Below are positions 4,464-25,699 of a stretch of 64,000 nucleotides of DNA, one piece after another. Source of the stretch: Burkholderia lata (GTDB taxonomy: Bacteria > Pseudomonadota > Gammaproteobacteria > Burkholderiales > Burkholderiaceae); assembly GCF_000012945.1 (NCBI RefSeq), contig NC_007510.1, positions 1,860,001 through 1,924,000 on the forward strand, given 5' to 3'. Every line of letters begins with the position of its first letter. Position 1 is the stretch's first letter. The notes beneath the pieces were generated by a model. That model worked only from the letters and a program-made list of their open reading frames with translations. It had not been told where the DNA came from and searched no databases. A program made the translations under genes and the position numbers.

Positions 4464-5543
4464 ATGAAGCACAGTTTCGAACGGCTGCGACTCGATGGCG
4501 TGTGCCGCAGCTTCACCAATGCTGAAGGCGCGCAGGTCGCCGCGCTGAACGGGCTCGATCTCGAGATCCGGCGCGGCGAATTCATCGCGCTGCTCGGCCC
4601 GTCGGGCTGCGGCAAGTCGACCGCGCTCAACTGCATCGCGGGGCTGCAGCCGCTCACGCGCGGCGGCATCTGGCTCGACGACACGCGCATCGACGTGCTG
4701 CCGCCCGAGCGCCGCGGCTTCGGGATGGTGTTCCAGAACTACGCGCTGTTTCCGCACATGTCGGTGCTCGACAACGTCGGCTTCGGCCTCAAGATGCGCG
4801 GCGTGCCGAAGCAGGAAACGCGGCGGCGCGCGCAGCAGGCGCTCGAACTCGTGCAGCTCGTCGGTCACGAGGGCAAGCTGCCCGGGCAACTGTCGGGCGG
4901 GCAGCAGCAGCGCGTCGCGATTGCGCGCGCGATCGTCATCGAGCCGCCGCTCGTGCTGATGGACGAACCGCTGTCGAACCTCGACACGAAGCTGCGTATC
5001 GAGATGCGCGCCGAGATCCGCCGCATCCACACGCAGCTCGAACGCGCGACGATCTACGTGACGCACGACCAGGACGAGGCGCTGTCGATGGCCGACCGTA
5101 TCGTCGTGATGAAGGAGGGCGTCGTGCAGCAGGTCGCGACGCCGAAGGACGTCTACACGCGCCCGCACAACCTGCATGTCGCGCGCTTCATGGGCTATCG
5201 CAACGTGCAGCCGTTCACGCTCGAAGGGATGGCAGGCGATTACGTGAGCGTCGCGGCCGGTGGCGTTCGCCTCACCGGCGTGCCGATGGCAGGCTTCGAC
5301 GCGAAGGAGGTCGTAGTCGCGCTACGCCCCGACGATATCGAGCGCGCGGACGAAGGCGGCGACAACACGTTCGACGCGACCGTCGAAACGGTCGAGTACG
5401 GCGGCCGCGATTCGCTGATCCGTGCGGTCACGCCGTTCGGCCCGATCTGGGCGCGCGTCGCCGGCGAATTCACGGAAGGCGAGCCGCTGCGGCTGCGCGT
5501 TGCGCCGTCGCGCACGCTCGTCTACCCGGGAGCGCCGACATGA
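4464..5543 (+). CDS. ABC transporter ATP-binding protein (PotA-type)
   Basis: A 359-residue ATPase that powers the importer. Walker A GPSGCGKS is at residues 45-52, the Q-loop at Gln91, the signature LSGGQ at 143-147, Walker B VLMDE at 164-168 and the switch His at 201. A C-terminal TOBE-like domain (about residues 240-359) includes LRPDDIE, as in PotA/FbpC-type proteins. The chosen ATG lies 49 bases after the binding-protein stop. The stop codon overlaps a further ATG (ATGA), hinting at translational coupling to what follows. Confidence 0.93.
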   Translation: MKHSFERLRLDGVCRSFTNAEGAQVAALNGLDLEIRRGEFIALLGPSGCGKSTALNCIAGLQPLTRGGIWLDDTRIDVLPPERRGFGMVFQNYALFPHMSVLDNVGFGLKMRGVPKQETRRRAQQALELVQLVGHEGKLPGQLSGGQQQRVAIARAIVIEPPLVLMDEPLSNLDTKLRIEMRAEIRRIHTQLERATIYVTHDQDEALSMADRIVVMKEGVVQQVATPKDVYTRPHNLHVARFMGYRNVQPFTLEGMAGDYVSVAAGGVRLTGVPMAGFDAKEVVVALRPDDIERADEGGDNTFDATVETVEYGGRDSLIRAVTPFGPIWARVAGEFTEGEPLRLRVAPSRTLVYPGAPT

Positions 5544-5584
5544 GCGGCGTGGCCGCGACGCGGGTACACCGGGAGGCCGCATGA
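5540..5584 (+). other. 14-codon coupling ORF between ATPase and permease
   Basis: A tiny frame opens in the ATGA overlapping the ATPase stop and closes in a TGA that overlaps the ATG of the permease at 5581. Both junctions are ATGA. It may keep ribosomes moving from ATPase to permease instead of making a useful peptide. Seen directly; function is inferred. Confidence 0.3.
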
Positions 5585-6450
5585 GCACGCTCCCGGCCGG
5601 CACGCCGCGCGACGCGAAAGCCTGGCTCGTCACGCCCGCGCTCGGGTTCATCGTCGCGCTGTTCATCTATCCGTTCGCGTACGGCCTCGTGCTGTCGTTC
5701 CAGCCGATGAACGGCGGCGGCGCGCTCGCGAACTACGTGCAGTTCTTCACCGACACCGCGATGTGGCCGACCGTGCTCGTCACGCTGAAGCTCGCGGTGC
5801 CGGCGACGCTGATCAACGTCGGCATCGCGGTGCCCGTCGCGTTCGCGCTCCGCCGCAACTCACCGTACCAGAAGTTCGTCACGACGCTGCTCGTGATTCC
5901 CGTCACGCTCGGCACGGTACTCGTCGCCGACGGGATGCTCACGTACTTCGGGCCGAACGGCTGGTTCCCGCAGGCGCTGCAGGGGCTGCACCTGTACACC
6001 GACGAAGTGCGCCTCACGCACAACTACTGGGGCGTGCTGCTGTCGCTGATCGTGTCGGGCTTTCCGTTCGCGTTCCTGCTGATGCTGTCGTACATCAGCG
6101 GCATCGACCCGACGCTCGCGCGCGCGGCCGCGACGCTCGGCGCGAACCCGTGGCAGCAGTTCCGGCAGATCTACCTGCCGCTGCTCGTGCCGGGGCTCAC
6201 GATGGCCGCGTGCCTGTCGTTCGTGCAGGCGTTCTCGGTGTTCCCGTCGGCCGTGCTGCTCGGCGCGCCGGCCGGGCCGACGCGCGTGATCTCGATCGCG
6301 GCGGCGGAAGCCGCATTCGAAAGCTACGACTATTCGCTCGCATCGGCGATCGCGATCGTGATGGGCTTCGTGCAGTTGCTGGTGGTCGCGTCGATGCTCG
6401 GCGCGCGCCGCTTCTTCTATACGGGCGCGGTGACGGGAGGCAAGGGCTGA
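5581..6450 (+). CDS. ABC transporter permease 1 (PotB-type)
   Basis: A 289-residue inner-membrane permease with about six hydrophobic helices. The cytoplasmic EAA loop that docks on the ATPase reads as ARAAATLGANPWQQFRQIYLPLL, near residues 180-202. GGGAGGC precedes the ATG. It overlaps the next permease by TGATG, so both membrane subunits are probably made in equal amounts. Belongs to the spermidine/putrescine-type permease family; ligand unknown. Confidence 0.9.
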   Translation: MSTLPAGTPRDAKAWLVTPALGFIVALFIYPFAYGLVLSFQPMNGGGALANYVQFFTDTAMWPTVLVTLKLAVPATLINVGIAVPVAFALRRNSPYQKFVTTLLVIPVTLGTVLVADGMLTYFGPNGWFPQALQGLHLYTDEVRLTHNYWGVLLSLIVSGFPFAFLLMLSYISGIDPTLARAAATLGANPWQQFRQIYLPLLVPGLTMAACLSFVQAFSVFPSAVLLGAPAGPTRVISIAAAEAAFESYDYSLASAIAIVMGFVQLLVVASMLGARRFFYTGAVTGGKG

Positions 6451-7382
6451 TGGCGACCGACAATCATGCCGCCCGCACCTGGCCGCCGAAGCATGACGCG
6501 CCCGATGCGTCCGGTGAGCGGCCCGTCGACGCGAGGAAACCGCAGAAGATGACAAGCAATCTCGCCGGCCGCGCCTGGAAGGCGCTCGTGTGGGCGCTGA
6601 TGGCGTTCTTCCTGCTGAACGTGATGCTGCTGATCGCGACCGTCGCGGTGAATTCGATCGCGACCCGCTGGTTCGGCACGCCGCTGCCGCAGGGCTTCAC
6701 GCTGCACTGGTACGCGAAGGCGTGGGAGGACTTCCAGCTCGCGAGCGTACTGTGGGTGACCGTCGAGGTCGTCGGCGCGGTCGTGCTGCTGTCGATCGCG
6801 CTCGGCGTGCCGGCCGCGTATGCGCTCGCGCGCGTGCAGTTTCGCGGCAAGCGCTTCGCGCTGCTGGTGTTCCTGCTGCCGCTGATGGTGCCGCCCGTCA
6901 CGTACGGGATCCCGATGGCCACCGTGATGTACAAGGTCGGGCTCGCGGGCACGCTGCCCGGCGTGATCCTCGCGAACCTCGTGCCGGCGCTGCCGTTCGT
7001 GATCCTCGTGATGACGCCGTTCATCGAGCAGATCGACCCGAATCTCGAGTCCGCCGCGCGCATCTTCGGCGCGAACACGTGGCGCTATTTCCGCTACGTG
7101 CTGCTGCCGCTGCTGGTGCCCGGCATGCTCGCGGCGGGGTTGCTCGTGCTGGTGCGCACGATCGGGATGTTCGAGCTGACCTTCTTCACCGCGGGGCCGA
7201 GCACGCAGACGCTCGTCGTCGCGCTGTATTACGCGGTGTTCTCGACCGGCGTGCGCGCGCCGCAGTCGATCGACGCGATGGCGATGATCTACATGGCCAT
7301 CACGCTCGTGTGGGTCGTGATCGCGCTGCAGTTCGTGAGCCCGACGCAACTCGTCAGCCGCGTGAAGCAGGAGCGGCAATAG
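6450..7382 (+). CDS. ABC transporter permease 2 (PotC-type)
   Basis: A 310-residue second permease. Its start overlaps the preceding stop (TGATG). An unusually long hydrophilic N-terminal extension of about 35 residues (MATDNHAARTWPPKHD...) precedes the first helix; an internal ATG at 6549 (MTSNLAGR) would give a more typical length. The EAA loop reads ESAARIFGANTWRYFRYVLLPLL. It completes the importer with the binding protein and ATPase upstream. The gene is followed by a short GAGGGC repeat and then an unrelated lipoprotein. Confidence 0.88.
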   Translation: MATDNHAARTWPPKHDAPDASGERPVDARKPQKMTSNLAGRAWKALVWALMAFFLLNVMLLIATVAVNSIATRWFGTPLPQGFTLHWYAKAWEDFQLASVLWVTVEVVGAVVLLSIALGVPAAYALARVQFRGKRFALLVFLLPLMVPPVTYGIPMATVMYKVGLAGTLPGVILANLVPALPFVILVMTPFIEQIDPNLESAARIFGANTWRYFRYVLLPLLVPGMLAAGLLVLVRTIGMFELTFFTAGPSTQTLVVALYYAVFSTGVRAPQSIDAMAMIYMAITLVWVVIALQFVSPTQLVSRVKQERQ

Positions 7383-19274: not shown

Positions 19275-19889
19275 TCAATCAGCCGGCACGAACGCCGCCC
19301 CGTGAAACACGCGCACGGGGTTGCCGCGCTCCAGCGCAAAGTGCTGCATCCGCCGCTGCCGGCGCGCATCCGATGCGTGACGGTCGGCTTCCTGCTGCAG
19401 TCGAACCTGCAGCAACTGCAGCGCCAGGCGCTTGTTCGCGTGCTGGCTGCGCTCGCTTTCCACGCGCACCGACAGGCCGGTCGCGACATGGGTCGCACGA
19501 ATCGCAGAGCTCGTCTTGTTCACGTGCTGGCCGCCCGGCCCGCGTGCGCGCATCGCTTCGAACCGCACGTCGCCATCCGGCAGCGGCTGCGCGTCGGCAC
19601 AGCGCGTGACGCCGATGAACCAGTTCTTGCGCGGATGGCGCAACCGGTACGGGCTCGCGCAAATCCATTGCAGCGTGCCGGTCCAGCGGTCCGCGAGCGC
19701 CTGCGCGCCGGCGCCGTCGAGATCGAGCAGCGCCGAGCGCAGCGTACCGGGCCGTTCGCCCGGCTCCGCATCGAGCACCGTGACGACGACACGCTGCGCA
19801 TCGGCTTCCGCCTGCAGGCGCCGCAACGCATTGGCCGCGGCCAGCTGGCATTCGAGCGGGCCGTGCGCCGAAGAAATCTGCATCAGCAT
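19275..19889 (-). CDS. prfH: peptide chain release factor H (PrfH)
   Basis: A 204-residue release-factor homologue with the GGQ peptidyl-hydrolysis motif at residues 119-121 (RGPGGQHVNKTSSAIR) and the basic C-terminal helix of RF domain 3. At about 200 residues it lacks the large N-terminal and codon-reading parts of RF1/RF2 (about 360 residues). The PrfH family is known to pair with RtcB and to free nascent chains from ribosomes with damaged rRNA. The ATG at 19889 overlaps the rtcB stop by 7 bases, so the two are translationally coupled. GGAGGCTGGCCG supplies the ribosome site. Confidence 0.92.
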   Translation of the reverse strand: MLMQISSAHGPLECQLAAANALRRLQAEADAQRVVVTVLDAEPGERPGTLRSALLDLDGAGAQALADRWTGTLQWICASPYRLRHPRKNWFIGVTRCADAQPLPDGDVRFEAMRARGPGGQHVNKTSSAIRATHVATGLSVRVESERSQHANKRLALQLLQVRLQQEADRHASDARRQRRMQHFALERGNPVRVFHGAAFVPAD

Positions 19890-21031
19890 CGGCCAGCCTC
19901 CCCGGACGTCTTGTAGGTCAGCACCGGCGCGAGCCGAGCCAGCTTGCGCAGCAGGCCGGCCGCCTCGAGCGCGTCGACGACGCTGTCGATCGGCTTGTAG
20001 GCCTGTGGCGCTTCCTCGTACAGCAGTTCGCGGTCTTCGCAGATCACGTGGCTGCCGAGCGGCGTGCGCGTGAGCTGCGACGGCGTGAAGCGCCGTTCGA
20101 GGCGCCCCTTGCAATCGCCGCGTGCCCACTTGCGGCCCGCACCGTGCGCCAGCGACGCCAGGCTGGCCGCATCATCGGGCCGCACCGGCGCGACGAGGTA
20201 GCTGTAGTCGCCGCGCGACCCGGGAATGACGACCGGCCCCGCGTCGGCCGGCGTCGCACCTTTGCGATGCAGCCAGCCCGGCTCGCCGTCGACGGTCGCG
20301 CGGCTCACCAGGTTGTGGTTCACGTCGAGCACGCACCGGCCATCGGTGCGCCAGCGCGCCAGCATGCGCCGCGCGATCAGGTCGCGATTCGCAATCGCGT
20401 AGCGCAGCGCCGCATCGTGACGCGCGAGGTACGCCGTGCAGGCGGCATCCGTATCGTCGAGGCCGTTGTAGCCGTGCTCGCGCATGTGCTGCTCCAGGAT
20501 CGACTGGCCGAAGCCGCGCGACCCGCTATGCACGAGCAGCAGCAGGCGATCGGGATCGAGGCCGAGCGCCGCGACGGCATCGGTGTCGTACACCGCGTCG
20601 ATCCGCTGCGCTTCCGCGAAATGATTGCCGCTGCCGATCGTGCCGAGCGATGCCGCGTACGCGTGATCCGCGAATCCGGCGGCCGCGATGAGCGGCTGCC
20701 AGCTCGCATCGGGCGTGGCATCGATCGAGCCGAGCCGGCTTGCGAGCTTCGACGCGCTGACGCGCCGCGCATCGAGCGCGGTTTGCCACAACGCCATCCC
20801 GCAGCCGATATCGCCGCCGATCAATGCCGGATACAGCTGGCCCGTCGAGAAGAACGCGGCGCCAACCGGGTAGCCGCGTCCGGGGTGAAGATCGGGCATG
20901 CCGGCGACGCGCCGCATGCCGGGGAGGGTGGCAGCGTGTTCGAGCTGCCGGATGGCCTCACCTTCGATCCAGGTGGTGGCGCAAGCGCACAACGTGATGC
21001 GCTCGCCCAGGTATTGCATGGAATTGCCCAT
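19883..21031 (-). CDS. rtcB: RtcB family RNA-splicing/repair ligase
   Basis: RtcB joins RNA 2',3'-cyclic-phosphate or 3'-phosphate ends to 5'-OH ends using GTP and Mn2+. With the chosen start the protein has 382 residues. Visible residues: Asp74 and Cys77 (GGDIGCGMA), His137 (GSGNHFAE), His168 (VHSGSRGFG), His239 (VNHNLVSR), and guanylylated His296 in HGAGR. The ATG at 21031 starts MGNSMQYLGERIT; an ATG at 21091 adds a non-conserved proline-rich extension. It is shorter than E. coli RtcB and, being fused by overlap to prfH, fits the PrfH-linked RtcB subgroup. A 12-codon ORF and a roughly 190-base leader lie upstream. Confidence 0.93.
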   Translation of the reverse strand: MGNSMQYLGERITLCACATTWIEGEAIRQLEHAATLPGMRRVAGMPDLHPGRGYPVGAAFFSTGQLYPALIGGDIGCGMALWQTALDARRVSASKLASRLGSIDATPDASWQPLIAAAGFADHAYAASLGTIGSGNHFAEAQRIDAVYDTDAVAALGLDPDRLLLLVHSGSRGFGQSILEQHMREHGYNGLDDTDAACTAYLARHDAALRYAIANRDLIARRMLARWRTDGRCVLDVNHNLVSRATVDGEPGWLHRKGATPADAGPVVIPGSRGDYSYLVAPVRPDDAASLASLAHGAGRKWARGDCKGRLERRFTPSQLTRTPLGSHVICEDRELLYEEAPQAYKPIDSVVDALEAAGLLRKLARLAPVLTYKTSGEAGRC

Positions 21032-21223
21032 GGAGGATTCCGTTCGATGAAAGAAGTGAACGGCGGGCCATGGCGCAGGCAGCGCAACCATGCGCTGCCC
21101 GACATCGGAAGTCGGGAAGAGGGCGGCACGACCGGATCGGGACGACCCGGCTCATCGCCGAGATGGCGATGCGTGGTGCTGCTTGGCGTGAACGATGAAA
21201 CGAACGGACGCGAAAAACCCGAA

Positions 21224-21262
21224 CTACGACCCGCGACGGGAGGAGTGTTGGCGTGACGTCAT
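21224..21262 (-). other. 12-codon leader ORF upstream of rtcB
   Basis: An ATG at 21262 is preceded by AAGGAG at 8-base spacing, the best ribosome site on this strand in the region, and encodes MTSRQHSSRRGS then stop. Position and strength suggest a leader peptide controlling rtcB-prfH, but this is inference. Between it and rtcB is a perfect 7-bp hairpin (21153-21171). Confidence 0.3.
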
Positions 21263-21306
21263 GATTTTTTCTCCTTGCGAGTGAGGGGTTGATCGGAATG
21301 GCGGCG

Positions 21307-21336
21307 ACTCTAGCATGCACGCGACAGGCGCAGCAA
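21307..21336 (-). promoter_or_regulatory. candidate rtcB-prfH promoter
   Basis: On the minus strand TTGCTG (21331-21336), 18-base spacer, TAGAGT (21307-21312). It would start transcription near 21300, just upstream of the 12-codon ORF. Match to sigma70 consensus is moderate. No sigma54 -24/-12 element, as used for E. coli rtcBA, is apparent. Confidence 0.35.
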
Positions 21337-21492
21337 GCGGGTAGCGTGGCGTTGCGCATCGAACCATCGTTCGATGTGGCGAAAAACACACACATAGGAA
21401 TCCGGATCATTCCCGTGTCGATGACGCGCACGGCACGCCGCAGCAGGCATTCGACGCACGCAGACCACCGCAACGGCTGCCCCCAACCACGC

Positions 21493-21521
21493 TTGACAGC
21501 GCAAAAGCCGTTTCGTAGCAT
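21493..21521 (+). promoter_or_regulatory. sigma70 promoter of the RNA ligase operon
   Basis: TTGACA (21493-21498), exactly 17 bases, TAGCAT (21516-21521). This is one of the best promoter matches in the window. Start would be near 21528, giving a leader of about 236 nt before the RNA ligase ATG. Confidence 0.65.
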
Positions 21522-21597
21522 CCGCCTGCTTCATCCCTGAACCCTCATCGAATCGGTGATCCAAGTGCCCGCAAACATTCGTCCCTTCGCCTGATAC

Positions 21598-21741
21598 GCC
21601 GACGACTGCCGTCCCGGCCGCGTGTCGTCCTGCCCGTTTCCGTCTGCCTCGCGGCACCGGAACAGTGATCGCAGGGCCGCGCCCGGACACGCACTGACAC
21701 CGCAACGCACCCCCATCGTTCGTTCACGTCGTCGGCTTTTT
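21598..21741 (+). ncRNA. structured leader RNA / attenuator candidate
   Basis: Between promoter and RNA ligase the transcript can form one nested structure: 9-bp closing stem 21598-21606 with 21728-21736; 7-bp stem 21620-21626 with 21686-21692; 7-bp stem 21627-21633 with 21671-21677 (one G-U); a bulged stem 21636-21642 with 21658-21663; and an apical 4-bp hairpin 21645-21648 with 21653-21656. Five Ts follow at once (21737-21741), so the closing stem can act as terminator 22 nt before the ligase ATG. It could be a stand-alone small RNA or an attenuator of the repair operon. Pairings are read from sequence; function is inferred. Confidence 0.4.
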
Positions 21742-21763
21742 CTGTTGTTTCCGGAGAAAGACC

Positions 21764-22633
21764 ATGACGCTGGATTTTCGCGCCTACGCGCAATCGCTCG
21801 ACCTCGCTCGCTACCCGCGCACGCCGCACCTCGAAGGCTCGCGCCTGCAGGACGGCGACGAAGGTCACGACCACGTTCCTTATCGCACCCTCGCGGGCGC
21901 CCATCTCGTCGTCGAGGAAAAGCTCGACGGCGCGAACACGGGCATCAGCTTCAGCCCGGCGGGCGAACTGCTGCTGCAGTCGCGCGGCCACTACCTGGCC
22001 GGCGGCGGCCGCGAGCGGCAGTTCAGTTTCGTCAAGACCTGGGCCGCTGCCCATGCGGGCTGGCTGCTCGACCGCCTCGGCGATCGCTACGTGATGTACG
22101 GCGAGACGATGAGCAAGAAGCACGCGGTGTTCTACGACGCGCTGCCGCATCACTTCTTCGAGTTCGACGTGTTCGACCGTGCAACGGGTCGTTTCCTGTC
22201 GACACCCGCGCGTCGCGCGCTGCTCGCCGACGGGCCGGTGCTGTCGGTGCCCGTGCTGTACGAAGGCATCGCACCGCCGCGGCTGGCCGACCTGAATGCG
22301 CTGCTCGGCCCGTCGCTCGCGAAGACGCCGGACTGGCGTCGCGCGTTCGAGGAAACGGTGCGGCGGCAGGGGCTCGACCTCGCGCGTGCATGGCAGCAGT
22401 GCGACAAGTCGGAGCGCTCCGAAGGGCTCTACGTGAAGGTCGAGACGGACGACACGACGACCGCGCGCCTGAAGTGGGTGCGCCACGATTTCGTGCAGGC
22501 CATTCTCGAACCGGCGCGCCATCACTCGGAGCAGCCGTTCATCCCGAACCTGCTCGCGCCGGATGTCGACCTGTATGCACCACGCCCGACGGTCACGTGG
22601 ACATCGCGCCCCGCCGCACACCCGAACAAATGA
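21764..22633 (+). CDS. ATP-dependent RNA ligase (Rnl family)
   Basis: A 289-residue nucleotidyltransferase that seals 5'-phosphate to 3'-OH RNA ends. Motif I KLDGANTG carries the adenylylated Lys53; the next motif is MYGETM (111-116), then FFEFDVFD (131-138), motif IV EGLYVKVE (220-227, Glu220) and motif V RLKWVR (235-240, Lys237). CCGGAGAAAGACC is the ribosome site. It is divergent from rtcB-prfH and directly upstream of an HD/kinase end-healing enzyme, whose products are exactly the ends this ligase needs. The first 45 residues are a family-specific N-terminal part. Confidence 0.9.
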   Translation: MTLDFRAYAQSLDLARYPRTPHLEGSRLQDGDEGHDHVPYRTLAGAHLVVEEKLDGANTGISFSPAGELLLQSRGHYLAGGGRERQFSFVKTWAAAHAGWLLDRLGDRYVMYGETMSKKHAVFYDALPHHFFEFDVFDRATGRFLSTPARRALLADGPVLSVPVLYEGIAPPRLADLNALLGPSLAKTPDWRRAFEETVRRQGLDLARAWQQCDKSERSEGLYVKVETDDTTTARLKWVRHDFVQAILEPARHHSEQPFIPNLLAPDVDLYAPRPTVTWTSRPAAHPNK

Positions 22634-22674
22634 ATGCGGAACGGTCGAGCGCCGTTTCGAGAGGAGTCTTGATC

Positions 22675-23808
22675 ATGAAGTACGAACAATTGCAGGCGCT
22701 CGTGCCTGCACCCGGCCTACAGCCGGACTATCGCGCGTGTCTCGCGGCGTTTCCTGCGCTCGAATACGCAAAAGCGACACAGCAGGAGCCGGCGCATCAC
22801 GGCGAAGGTGACGTGTGGACGCATACGATGATGGTGATCGATGCGCTGCTGGCACTGCCCGAATACCAGGCTGCGTCGCGTGCCGACCAGGAGATCGTGT
22901 TCCTGGCCGCGCTGCTGCACGACATCGCGAAGCACAGCACGACCGTCGTCGATCCCGTTACCGGCGCGATCGGCCATCCCGGCCACTCGCGCAAGGGCGC
23001 AATCGATGCGCGGATCGCACTGTGGGATGCCGGCGTGCCGTTCGCGGTGCGCGAGGCGATCTGCCGGATGATCGCGGTGCACCAGGTGCCGTTCTTCGCG
23101 ATGAGCGGGTCGCGCCGCGGCACGCCCGAGTTCATCGCGCGCGAGCTGTCGTGGCAGGTCAGCCTGCCGCTGCTGTGCCTGCTTGCCGAAGCCGACATTC
23201 GCGGGCGCATCTGCGACGACACGCAGCGCGTGCTCGACAACATTGAACTGTTGCGTGAACTGGCGAGGGAAGAGGGCTGCTACGGCCAGCCGCGTGCGTT
23301 CGCCGACGCGCACACCGCGCTCAGCTACTTCCGCGGCGCGGACGTGCATCCCGACTATCCGCTGTTCCGTACGCCGGGCTCGCAGGTCGTCGTGATGTCG
23401 GGCTTGCCCGCGTCAGGCAAGAACACGTGGGTCGCACGACATCATCCGGATCTGCCGGTCGTGTCGTTCGACGATGCACGCGATGCATTGGGTCTGCGTC
23501 ATGGGCAGAACGAGGGCGCCGTCGCGCACCATGCGGTCGACGCCGCGAAGGCGCTGTTGCGCGCGCAGAAGCCGTTCGTGTGGAATGCGACGAACCTGTC
23601 GCCGCTGATGCGCAAGAAGACGCTCGACCTGCTGTTTGCGTACAACGCCGACGTGACGCTCGTCTACCTCGAACAGCCGCGTGCCGAACTGTTGCGTCGC
23701 AATGCGCGGCGCGACACGTCGCTGACGAATCGCGCGCTCGAGGCGATGCTGCTGCGTTGGGATCTGCCGCTGCCGACCGAAGCGCACGCGGTGCGGTACG
23801 AAGTCTGA
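22675..23808 (+). CDS. HD-domain phosphohydrolase fused to polynucleotide kinase
   Basis: A 377-residue end-healing enzyme. The N-terminal HD domain (about 40-200) has HHGEGDVWTH and the HD pair at 82-83 (LLHDIAKH), and should remove 2',3'-cyclic or 3'-phosphate. The C-terminal P-loop kinase (about 235-377) has GLPASGKN at 243-250, with Asn in place of the usual Ser/Thr, then SFDDARDAL and a lid rich in Arg (ELLRRNARRDTS), typical of T4-type 5'-OH kinases. GAGAGGAGTC precedes the ATG, 42 bases after the ligase. Together they form a cut, heal and seal cassette. Confidence 0.88.
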   Translation: MKYEQLQALVPAPGLQPDYRACLAAFPALEYAKATQQEPAHHGEGDVWTHTMMVIDALLALPEYQAASRADQEIVFLAALLHDIAKHSTTVVDPVTGAIGHPGHSRKGAIDARIALWDAGVPFAVREAICRMIAVHQVPFFAMSGSRRGTPEFIARELSWQVSLPLLCLLAEADIRGRICDDTQRVLDNIELLRELAREEGCYGQPRAFADAHTALSYFRGADVHPDYPLFRTPGSQVVVMSGLPASGKNTWVARHHPDLPVVSFDDARDALGLRHGQNEGAVAHHAVDAAKALLRAQKPFVWNATNLSPLMRKKTLDLLFAYNADVTLVYLEQPRAELLRRNARRDTSLTNRALEAMLLRWDLPLPTEAHAVRYEV

Positions 23809-23890: not shown

Positions 23891-24523
23891 TCAACTCGCC
23901 ACGATGATGAATGTGGTGAGCGCGATCGGGAACAGGGCGAGGCCGAGCAGGCCCAACGCGCCATCGGCCGCCATTGCGATCGGCGACAACGCCAGCTTGG
24001 CGCCGCGGCCGACAGCCGTCAGCTTGTCCGTCACCTTGACATGGTACGGACGATTGAACGCCTGCGGAACCGACGAAGGCGTGACGTCGTTCGGCAGATA
24101 GCGCTTGCCGCTGATCTTGCCTTCCGACTCGAGGTAGGCACCGTCCTTCTTGAAACCGTCCGCGAGCGCACGCTCGCGCACGTCGGAGCCGGTCGGTGCG
24201 TCCGAGTAGTCCAGCCTCATCGTGTATTGACCGGTGATCGCGTCGCCGTGCGCCTCGAAATCGTTGAACGCCGTGTGGATCTTCGGGCGATAGGGGGCAT
24301 TGAGCACAGTCGCAAGGCTCGGCGGCATCTCGAAGATGTAGTGATACTTCTTGCCGAGCACGACGAGTTGCTTGCCGTCTGCGGTAATCAGGAACGTCGA
24401 CAAGGTTTCGTCGTATTCCGAATCCTCCATCCACGCCTTGGTGACGGGACCGAAATTGGAGCAGCCGGCAAGCATGCCGGACGCTGCCACGGCGGGCAGC
24501 GCGAGAAATGTTCTTCTTTTCAT
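23891..24523 (-). CDS. lipoprotein of a tandem pair, function unknown (copy 1)
   Basis: A 210-residue protein with an arginine-start signal (MKRRTFLALP) and lipobox LAGC, Cys at residue 21. The middle has a conserved block DGKQLVVLGKKYHYIF shared with copy 2. The C-terminus is hydrophobic (LGLLGLALFPIALTTFIIVAS) and could insert in the membrane, which is unusual for a lipoprotein. Copy 2 at 24822-25469 has the same layout, so this is a local duplication. No known domain is recognised. Confidence 0.8.
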   Translation of the reverse strand: MKRRTFLALPAVAASGMLAGCSNFGPVTKAWMEDSEYDETLSTFLITADGKQLVVLGKKYHYIFEMPPSLATVLNAPYRPKIHTAFNDFEAHGDAITGQYTMRLDYSDAPTGSDVRERALADGFKKDGAYLESEGKISGKRYLPNDVTPSSVPQAFNRPYHVKVTDKLTAVGRGAKLALSPIAMAADGALGLLGLALFPIALTTFIIVAS

Positions 24524-24821: not shown

Positions 24822-25469
24822 TCACGGCGCCCGCCGATTCGACTTCGCGACGACGACGAATGCCGTGACCGCGATCGACGTCAGCGGGGCGCCGGCCAGA
24901 CTCACCCTGCCATCGGCCGTCATCCTGACCGGCGAGCGCGGAAACCGGACCTGGCCGAACACCACCGACCGCTCCCTGATCTCGACGTCGTACGGATGCC
25001 CGGACACCTGCGGAATCGACGACGACGTGACGTCGTTCGGTTGAAAGCTCATGCCGACGATCGTGCCGGCCGTCTCCAGCGCGTCACCCTGGGCCCGAAA
25101 ACCGGTGGCGAGCGCGCGTTCGCGAAGCGCGGAGCCAGGCGGTGCGTCGTCGCGAGAAAGCCGCAACCAGTAGTCTGCGGTGGTCAGGCCTCGGTCAGTC
25201 TCGAAAGCCACGAAATGGATGTTCGGGCTCGCGTGGCCGGGTGCCGCGAGCGCCGCGGCAAAGGCACGCGGCAGATCGAAAACGTAGTGGCACTGCTTGC
25301 CGAGTACGACGAGCCTTTTCCCGTCCGCAGTCACCAGAAATGCAGACAACGTGTCGCGATAGCCGGTGACGCGCATCGCGCTCGGCGTCACGCGGACGGT
25401 ATCGCTGCAGCCAGTCAGCATGCCGGACGCCACCATCGCTGGCAGCGCGAGAAACGTTCTTCTTTTCAT
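24822..25469 (-). CDS. lipoprotein of a tandem pair, function unknown (copy 2)
   Basis: A 215-residue paralogue of copy 1 with signal MKRRTFLALP and lipobox LTGC (Cys21). Shared blocks include SAFLVTADGKRLVVLGKQCHYVF, SALRERALATGF and FQPNDVTSSSIPQV. It ends with a weaker hydrophobic segment and a basic tail (AKSNRRAP). The start was set at the MKRR ATG because both paralogues and the lipobox agree; the frame extends upstream without signal features. It lies divergent to the LysR gene. Confidence 0.8.
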   Translation of the reverse strand: MKRRTFLALPAMVASGMLTGCSDTVRVTPSAMRVTGYRDTLSAFLVTADGKRLVVLGKQCHYVFDLPRAFAAALAAPGHASPNIHFVAFETDRGLTTADYWLRLSRDDAPPGSALRERALATGFRAQGDALETAGTIVGMSFQPNDVTSSSIPQVSGHPYDVEIRERSVVFGQVRFPRSPVRMTADGRVSLAGAPLTSIAVTAFVVVAKSNRRAP

Positions 25470-25699
25470 GAATGCCGTGCTGTTCTGTTCGTTGTTCGGC
25501 GGCACCGCTTGAATGTCGGACACGACGTTCGATGTACGTCATGACGCGACGGCCGTTCGCGCGGTTTCTTAGTTCGCGCATTGTAGGACCAAAGCCGGCG
25601 GCGCAACGTCCTCGGCCAGGCGCCGCACCCGCGTGCGGTAGACTGCACGCTCGCTTGCCCACCGCCCACTACACGACCGCTCGCGCCCGCTGACACGCC

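Follow-up and report, generated by a model that had tools for sequence, protein, structure and literature searches.

A 64,000-nucleotide stretch of the Burkholderia lata genome (contig NC_007510.1, positions 1,860,001 to 1,924,000; hereafter the window, from whose first letter all positions are counted) carries two divergent RNA-repair modules, rtcB2-prfH on the minus strand and rnl-hd-pnk on the plus strand, each preceded by a leader with a short open reading frame (ORF). An earlier note on this DNA, drawn up from the letters alone, had named the four genes, placed rtcB and prfH as an overlapping pair on one strand and an Rnl-type ligase and an HD-phosphatase/kinase fusion on the other, and seen in them both ligation chemistries at one locus. 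The coordinates confirm this arrangement, curated models scoring over their cut-offs bear out the identities and strands, and the presence of both chemistries is supported through these identities. The two pairs are each a known module. It is their divergent union, together with both leaders in one locus, that provisionally seems to be new, and the conserved leaders between the genes, which the note had not mentioned, tell more of how the locus works than does the list of genes.

Two repair modules and their distribution

The four genes are the following:

19275..19889, minus strand: prfH, peptide chain release factor H (TIGR03072, 286.7 bits, cut-off 166.65; GGQ motif in the translation)
19883..21031, minus strand: rtcB2, PrfH-associated RNA ligase of the RtcB family (PRK09588, 559.2 bits, cut-off 407; TIGR03073, 537.5 bits, cut-off 271.8)
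21764..22633, plus strand: rnl, RNA ligase (PF09414, E 6.9e-33; RNA ligase folds top the Foldseek list)
22675..23808, plus strand: hd-pnk, HD domain and P-loop kinase (PF01966 and PF13671 (AAA_33), both above cut-off)

On the minus strand prfH starts inside the 3' end of rtcB2, and a PrfH-associated rtcB directly upstream of and overlapping prfH is what characterizes RtcB2-PrfH operons. The closest solved chain to the window PrfH is PrfH 7sa4, and the HGAGR and Cys/His motifs of RtcB2 align with those of solved RtcB. On the plus strand an HD domain is fused to a P-loop kinase and the gene of an ATP-dependent ligase adjoins it, as is typical of HD-Pnk/Rnl operons. Searches with the Rnl sequence against solved structures found no RNA ligase; RNA ligases emerged by fold comparison, with T4 RNA ligase 2 and REL1 nearest to the predicted structure at a TM of about 0.4 (Foldseek). 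The profile of HD-Pnk matches T4 polynucleotide kinase, and its predicted structure has tRNA-processing enzymes as best matches, polynucleotide kinases standing lower in the list; both predictions are of moderate confidence (mean pLDDT 70.6 for Rnl and 70.9 for HD-Pnk). Where GKS or GKT is usual, the P-loop of HD-Pnk has GKN or GKD (GK[N/D]TW) in all 73 pattern matches among loci L044-L121, and the group consequently fails the kinase pattern GxxxxGK[ST]. Judged by its sequence, HD-Pnk is likely, although not assured, to be an active kinase; if its kinase is dead, Rnl would need another source of 5'-phosphate. PADLOC returned no defence-system match for the four proteins.

Both modules have characterized counterparts. 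RtcB2-PrfH protects E. coli ATCC 25922 from colicin E3 (PMC9223846), and the main text of that paper contains none of the words leader, ORF or attenuat. The E. coli operon has the same genes, order and overlap as the window, and the plasmid-filed E. coli copy also has a leader ORF; the pair in the window differs in standing divergent from a second repair module. PMC6514570 regards the RtcB-PrfH association as countering effectors that cut RNA; in the text seen, the genes accreting around it encode TPR, Pol-beta nucleotidyltransferase, zinc-ribbon and charged-helix proteins, the word kinase being absent from the main text. For the other module, the text seen of PMC1997131 describes an HD-kinase and ligase operon in D. 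radiodurans (DRB0098/DRB0100), a measured kinase activity of DRB0098, and phosphorylation of a DNA oligonucleotide by the Deinococcus HD-kinase. As far as this account goes, the Deinococcus proteins resemble the window in having an HD phosphatase fused to a 5'-kinase with a ligase in the same operon. The ligase gene of D. taeanensis overlaps hd-pnk, and the P-loop there is GKS (GKSSW), in contrast to GKN or GKD in the group of the window. Runella HD-Pnk is likewise said to go with an ATP-dependent ligase, and the Pnkp1-Rnl-Hen1 complex reportedly combines end healing with Rnl sealing of ribotoxin-cut RNA. The healing enzyme of the latter differs from that of the window, where none of the four proteins matched Hen1 in Pfam.

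An alignment search with HD-Pnk yielded 78 named loci (from the best 80 of 126 matches), and in 77 of them rnl precedes hd-pnk in the same orientation. All four genes occur at 9 of the 11 Burkholderia loci (in L054 rtcB2 and prfH lie about 2 kb before rnl), and these nine are the only ones among the 78 with an adjoining rtcB2-prfH. The four-gene set that the earlier note proposed to look for in related genomes is thus kept within Burkholderia, and its adjacency was seen in that genus alone. At L049 (B. cenocepacia NCTC13227) rnl-hd-pnk and its leader are kept, rtcB2-prfH and the conserved block on the rtcB2 side are missing, and no prfH match was found in the genome; L053 lies on a cut contig, and its genome has no prfH match either. 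The records of L053 and L054 both give the strain as LMG 13014. Each contains two hd-pnk copies: rnl is followed first by a short piece and then by a second stretch (1124-2272 and 1086-2234, 70-71% identity), and the remainder of a 96% copy comes about 6 kb onward, as though the gene had been interrupted by an insert that brought an hd-pnk along.

Beyond adjacency, the modules keep company. The earlier note would have given up joint action had the genes failed to co-occur in other genomes, which is not the case: prfH was found somewhere in 27 of 50 genomes with rnl-hd-pnk, and in 23 of the 45 outside Burkholderia. Among 150 Burkholderiaceae genomes, HD-Pnk matched strongly in 6 (three weak partial matches, E 3e-4 to 9e-4, were excluded) and prfH scored above cut-off in 13; prfH was present in 6/6 genomes with HD-Pnk and in 7/144 others (Fisher p 1.2e-7, uncorrected for phylogeny). 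The 15 genomes of the same genus in that sample are all-or-none, 5 having both modules and 10 neither, and in the five the two matches begin 3381-3390 bp apart. In the sixth HD-Pnk genome, from another genus, HD-Pnk and prfH are unlinked and on separate contigs. Six Janthinobacterium loci (L068, L069, L072, L076, L077, L092) have a different RtcB (33-34% identity to that of the window) divergent from rnl and no prfH; this rtcB, at about 5280-6560 on the minus strand, is a second juxtaposition of an RtcB with rnl-hd-pnk. Joint action of the two modules is inferred.

The leader of the rnl operon

The intergenic region between rtcB2 and rnl measures 732 bp, and its alignment with nine Burkholderia loci revealed two conserved blocks. 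The one on the plus strand lies downstream of a sigma-70-like promoter, the sole such site in 20900-21900 (mean of shuffles 0.0). The elements on this side are:

21493..21521, plus strand: sigma-70-like promoter of rnl (TTGACA, 17 nt, TAGCAT), a consensus match only
21555..21766, plus strand: extent of the match of covariance model R1 to the rnl leader
21565..21594, plus strand: rnl leader ORF (GTG start, 9 codons and TGA)
21599..21606, plus strand: segment 2 (CCGACGAC), 5' arm of a long-range helix
21728..21735, plus strand: segment 3 (GTCGTCGG), common to helix 2:3 and hairpin 3:4
21753..21770, plus strand: segment 4, the start region of rnl from the Shine-Dalgarno sequence (SD) through the start codon to codon 2 (z -2.7 for the local fold, -18.8 kcal/mol)

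The leader ORF together with helix 2:3 is present in 66 of 75 loci, from Burkholderia, Achromobacter, Ralstonia, Janthinobacterium, Pectobacterium and Pseudomonas. This count comprises 57 loci found by a strict script, 8 more type-A leaders and L100 with a 6-codon ORF; L053, L054 and L084 were too short to be counted, and L095 has no rnl match. In the strict matches the ORF is 8 or 9 codons long (60/60) and starts with GTG in 54 cases and ATG in 6, and in 57 of the 60 segment 2 begins 1-3 nt past the leader stop codon and is complementary to segment 3 shortly before rnl. At L109 (6973-7128) the leader stop reads TGG, with helix and hairpin intact.

Across these 57 loci pairs 2, 5 and 6 of helix 2:3 are invariant, and pairs 1, 3 and 7 show compensatory changes: pair 1 is G-C in 33, A-U in 15, G-U in 7 and an unpaired UU in 2, pair 3 is C-G in 41, U-A in 15 and U-G in 1, and pair 7 is G-C in 54, A-U in 2 and G-U in 1. 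Pair 8 fails in 3 loci and pair 9 in 27. In the 39 type-A leaders (10 from Burkholderia including the window, 12 from Achromobacter/Ralstonia and 17 Pseudomonas-type) 98.8% of cells pair, and the 17 two-sided cells, in which both partners have changed, were equalled in 0/500 shuffles. RNAalifold recovered the helix unaided in each of four groups (7 of 22 Burkholderia/Achromobacter/Ralstonia leaders, having no pattern match, were omitted), and in most loci the helix score is exceptional when compared with shuffled 3' regions.

Segment 3 also takes part in a second structure. In the minimum-energy fold of all 39 type-A leaders, segment 3 and the U-rich stretch that follows it pair with the start region of rnl (SD, start codon, codon 2), forming hairpin 3:4. 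The local folds have a median z of -2.7, and for 16 of the 39 no more than 3 of 300 shuffles did as well; there are 24 two-sided cells (0/500 shuffles). Hairpin 3:4 and helix 2:3 are mutually exclusive, and type A therefore combines a leader ORF with two exclusive structures, one of which hides the start region, as expected of an attenuator. The leader ORF, the covarying helix, the competing hairpin and the association of the leader with the operon are all shown from the sequences and by computation.

The effect of a ribosome on this equilibrium was predicted by partition-function folding with a masked ribosome footprint. For the window, the probability of helix 2:3 is 0.02 with no ribosome, 0.91 with a stall at codon 2 and 0.00 with a ribosome at the stop codon, and the openness of the rnl start is 0.02, 0.50 and 0.01, respectively. 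An early stall is predicted to raise the probability of the helix above 0.5 in 24 of 39 leaders (Burkholderia 10/10, Achromobacter/Ralstonia 1/12, Pseudomonas-type 13/17). When the middle of the leader was shuffled, the observed gap was reached in 0/40 cases for the window, L052 and L120. In these models the switch is well predicted for Burkholderia, fairly for the Pseudomonas-type and not at equilibrium for Achromobacter/Ralstonia; in that group it would hinge on cotranscriptional folding.

Covariance model R1, trained on 17 leaders (16 from Pseudomonas and one filed as Pantoea), matches the window leader with E 8.7e-5 in 355 kb, and in the complete 8.68-Mb genome this is the only match at E up to 1 (E 0.002). 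Among 15 sources that contributed no training sequence, E fell below 0.01 in 6 (window, L044, L052, L055, L056, L064) and was 0.07 in L093; in the other 8 (L067, L068, L073, L082, L083, L094, L100, L107) the leader was missed, as were most of type B. In whole-genome scans, which score at most 150 candidates per genome, the rnl leader came out as the best match in all 18 genomes, 12 of which had supplied training sequences, and five extra matches elsewhere had E 0.04-0.85. R1 also matches 5/5 genomes with hd-pnk, some of them overlapping those of the earlier scans, and 0/15 without it (ten from Burkholderia, and five from another genus that carry prfH). Rfam gave no match at the rnl leader (window stretch; 4 loci at E up to 1; 8 loci at the gathering cut-off), and no prior description was found in the open-licence literature. 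For the present, the rnl leader appears to be undescribed.

The leader of the rtcB2-prfH operon

The second conserved block precedes rtcB2:

21032..21330, minus strand: rtcB2-prfH leader (limits approximate), a conserved block in the 8 Burkholderia loci with the gene
21224..21262, minus strand: rtcB2-prfH leader ORF MTSRQHSSRRGS, with SD AAGGAG

Under a strict pattern, an SD and short ORF occur before rtcB2-prfH in 27 of 28 leaders, that of the window included, where shuffles predict 0.17; only L145 fails. Each of the 28 offers at least 200 nt, and they include the window and a plasmid-filed E. coli record; L146 had too little sequence. Two E. coli copies on plasmid-filed records (L159, L160) have dinB and a GNAT gene (yafP) as neighbours, and they too have the leader ORF. 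Alignment of 17 leaders, none from Burkholderia, brought out a conserved UUGCAG inside the ORF and UGCC downstream. Of these leaders, which are of E. coli, Pseudomonas, Pectobacterium and Ralstonia type, 15 carry the motif CUUUGCAGG and two have CCUUGCAGG instead. In the window and Burkholderia rtcB2 leaders the CUUUGCAGG motif and its CCUGC pairing are absent, and consequently the kinship of the window leader with that of E. coli and Pseudomonas is unproven. Folding six rtcB2 leaders with masked ribosomes gave alternative structures and no clear common switch.

A precedent for such a leader exists in P. aeruginosa. As described in PMC12057347 and PMC13041342, ribosome-targeting drugs induce armZ, an RtcB-like gene adjoining prfH (PA5470), via the leader peptide PA5471.1, through ribosome stalling and a proposed transcription attenuation, and loss of the tRNA-CCA enzyme raises ribosome association at this leader. 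Several Pseudomonas rtcB2 leaders in our set read MQQLIT, with Gln at codon 3 like PA5471.1 as published and Leu at codon 4 where the latter has Phe. The window resembles armZ, as far as the published description seen allows, in position and logic, with a leader ORF before an RtcB-like gene beside prfH. It differs in that its leader is without CUUUGCAGG, and in that armZ is described as subject to transcription attenuation and was studied for efflux control.

Stalled ribosomes as a possible signal for repair

We lean slightly towards reading the locus as a two-module RNA-repair island in which each module has a short-ORF leader and the rnl leader is a translational attenuator responsive to stalled ribosomes. 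When the leader is free of ribosomes, or when one at the stop codon masks segment 2, segment 3 would fold onto the SD and start of rnl and keep expression off; an early stall in the leader ORF would leave segment 2 free to pair with segment 3, opening the start region. Cut rRNA or tRNA would arrest translation and thereby switch repair on, both modules being held back until ribosomes stall on the leader ORF. PrfH would then free the nascent chain and RtcB2 reseal breaks with 3'-phosphate and 5'-OH ends, while HD-Pnk would heal both ends for Rnl to seal breaks with 5'-phosphate and 3'-OH. The direction of switching, the stalling signal and the on and off states in vivo are what we infer from the predicted folds. 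In its general form the idea stands at about even chances: both operons here and the rnl-hd-pnk operons of beta- and gamma-proteobacteria would be induced by ribosome stalling on a leader ORF, such that cut tRNA or rRNA induces its own repair, and the rnl leader would represent an undescribed RNA family that uncovers the start codon of a ligase.

A number of results weigh against stalling-dependent attenuation. Nine loci (L082, L094, L096, L097, L098, L102, L107, L111, L119), from Acidovorax, Paracidovorax, Delftia, Diaphorobacter and Comamonas, are without the helix, and type-B leaders (Janthinobacterium, Massilia, Mitsuaria/Roseateles, Pectobacterium) keep the ORF and helix with a different start region. 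Counted as pairs, two-sided changes number 2 in helix 2:3 and 3 in hairpin 3:4, both unexceptional (71/500 and 451/500 shuffles), and for L073, L087, L088 and L091 the helix score was equalled or beaten by 23-32 of 200 shuffled 3' regions. Equilibrium switching is predicted in just one of the 12 Achromobacter/Ralstonia leaders and not in 4 of the 17 Pseudomonas-type, three Burkholderia leaders (L046, L049, L052) favour helix 2:3 even without a ribosome, and in only 13 of 39 leaders does the openness of the start under a stall exceed that with a ribosome at the stop codon by more than 0.2. The middle-shuffle control failed in L059 (8/40), L099 (9/40), L113 (16/40) and L064 (24/40).

The leader might instead be a structured autoregulatory RNA, in which helix 2:3 is a binding site for Rnl, HD-Pnk, some other protein or a ligand, while the ORF only tunes folding or stability. 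The helix is better conserved than the leader peptide, whose sequence varies between genera, it survives the loss of the stop codon in L109, and type-B leaders carry extra conserved sequence between the arms. Such an RNA would not predict an ORF of 8-9 codons in 60/60 strict matches, with its stop codon 1-3 nt before the helix wherever the helix is present, nor a competing hairpin over the start codon in 39/39, and we regard it as improbable. Transcription attenuation, in which stalling alters termination before rnl, has the armZ leader as its model, described as transcriptional in the parts of PMC12057347 and PMC13041342 available, and the downstream arm of type A is indeed followed by U-rich sequence. 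This U run is absent in Janthinobacterium and Massilia, the two terminator-like sites in 20900-21900 are within shuffle level (mean 1.1) with neither at the downstream arm, and what the hairpin covers is the SD and start codon; termination before rnl is accordingly very improbable. An intrinsic terminator as the general mechanism was rejected, the U run not being conserved.

It is also conceivable, if rather unlikely, that the modules merely share a genomic spot without joint action, Rnl and HD-Pnk perhaps working on DNA. Adjacency is seen just in Burkholderia, B. cenocepacia L049 keeps rnl-hd-pnk in a genome where no prfH was found, and the Deinococcus HD-kinase phosphorylates a DNA oligonucleotide according to the text seen of PMC1997131. 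A shared spot fits less well with the all-or-none pattern and near-constant spacing in the 15 same-genus genomes, with prfH in about half (23/45) of the non-Burkholderia genomes that have rnl-hd-pnk, or with the different RtcB divergent from rnl in six Janthinobacterium loci; a DNA substrate is at odds with RNA ligases being the best fold matches of Rnl.

Little is known about how bacteria sense RNA damage and decide on repair beyond the RtcR system. If the attenuator reading is true, the rnl leader would be a simple damage sensor that converts stalling into a ligase and its end-healing partner, and two chemically distinct routes would obey one logic. It would also give a reason for the response of rtcB2 (armZ) and prfH to ribosome-targeting drugs in Pseudomonas, treated so far, in the publications as seen, as efflux control. 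The RtcBA operon under RtcR is reportedly another RtcB-based repair system. It differs from the window, where neither RtcA nor RtcR is among the five flanking proteins tested. Control by sigma-54 and RtcR was rejected on this ground and on the lack of any site with at most 2 mismatches in 21032-21763, the whole window having 18 such sites where 27 are expected.

The host genome (8.68 Mb, three contigs) has two further RtcB genes on another contig, and no tRNA gene was found in the 64-kb window. Judged by HD-Pnk, the closest named relatives among the matches listed are Burkholderia (B. puraquae, 97%). Of five flanking proteins tested with Pfam, three are recognized as an MFS transporter, a methyltransferase and a LysR regulator, and two have no match. 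A phage origin was considered and set aside; one phage record has a distant HD-Pnk (31%), and 10 relatives on viral contigs are at 24-33%. Plasmids also carry relatives of HD-Pnk, in 41 records of which 18 are from Deinococcus, and on six Pseudomonas plasmids the identity is 55-61%. Beside hd-pnk, at 23891-24523 and 24822-25523 on the minus strand, are two adjacent lipoprotein-like paralogues (MKRRTFLALPA..ASGML.GCS) for which Pfam gave no match.

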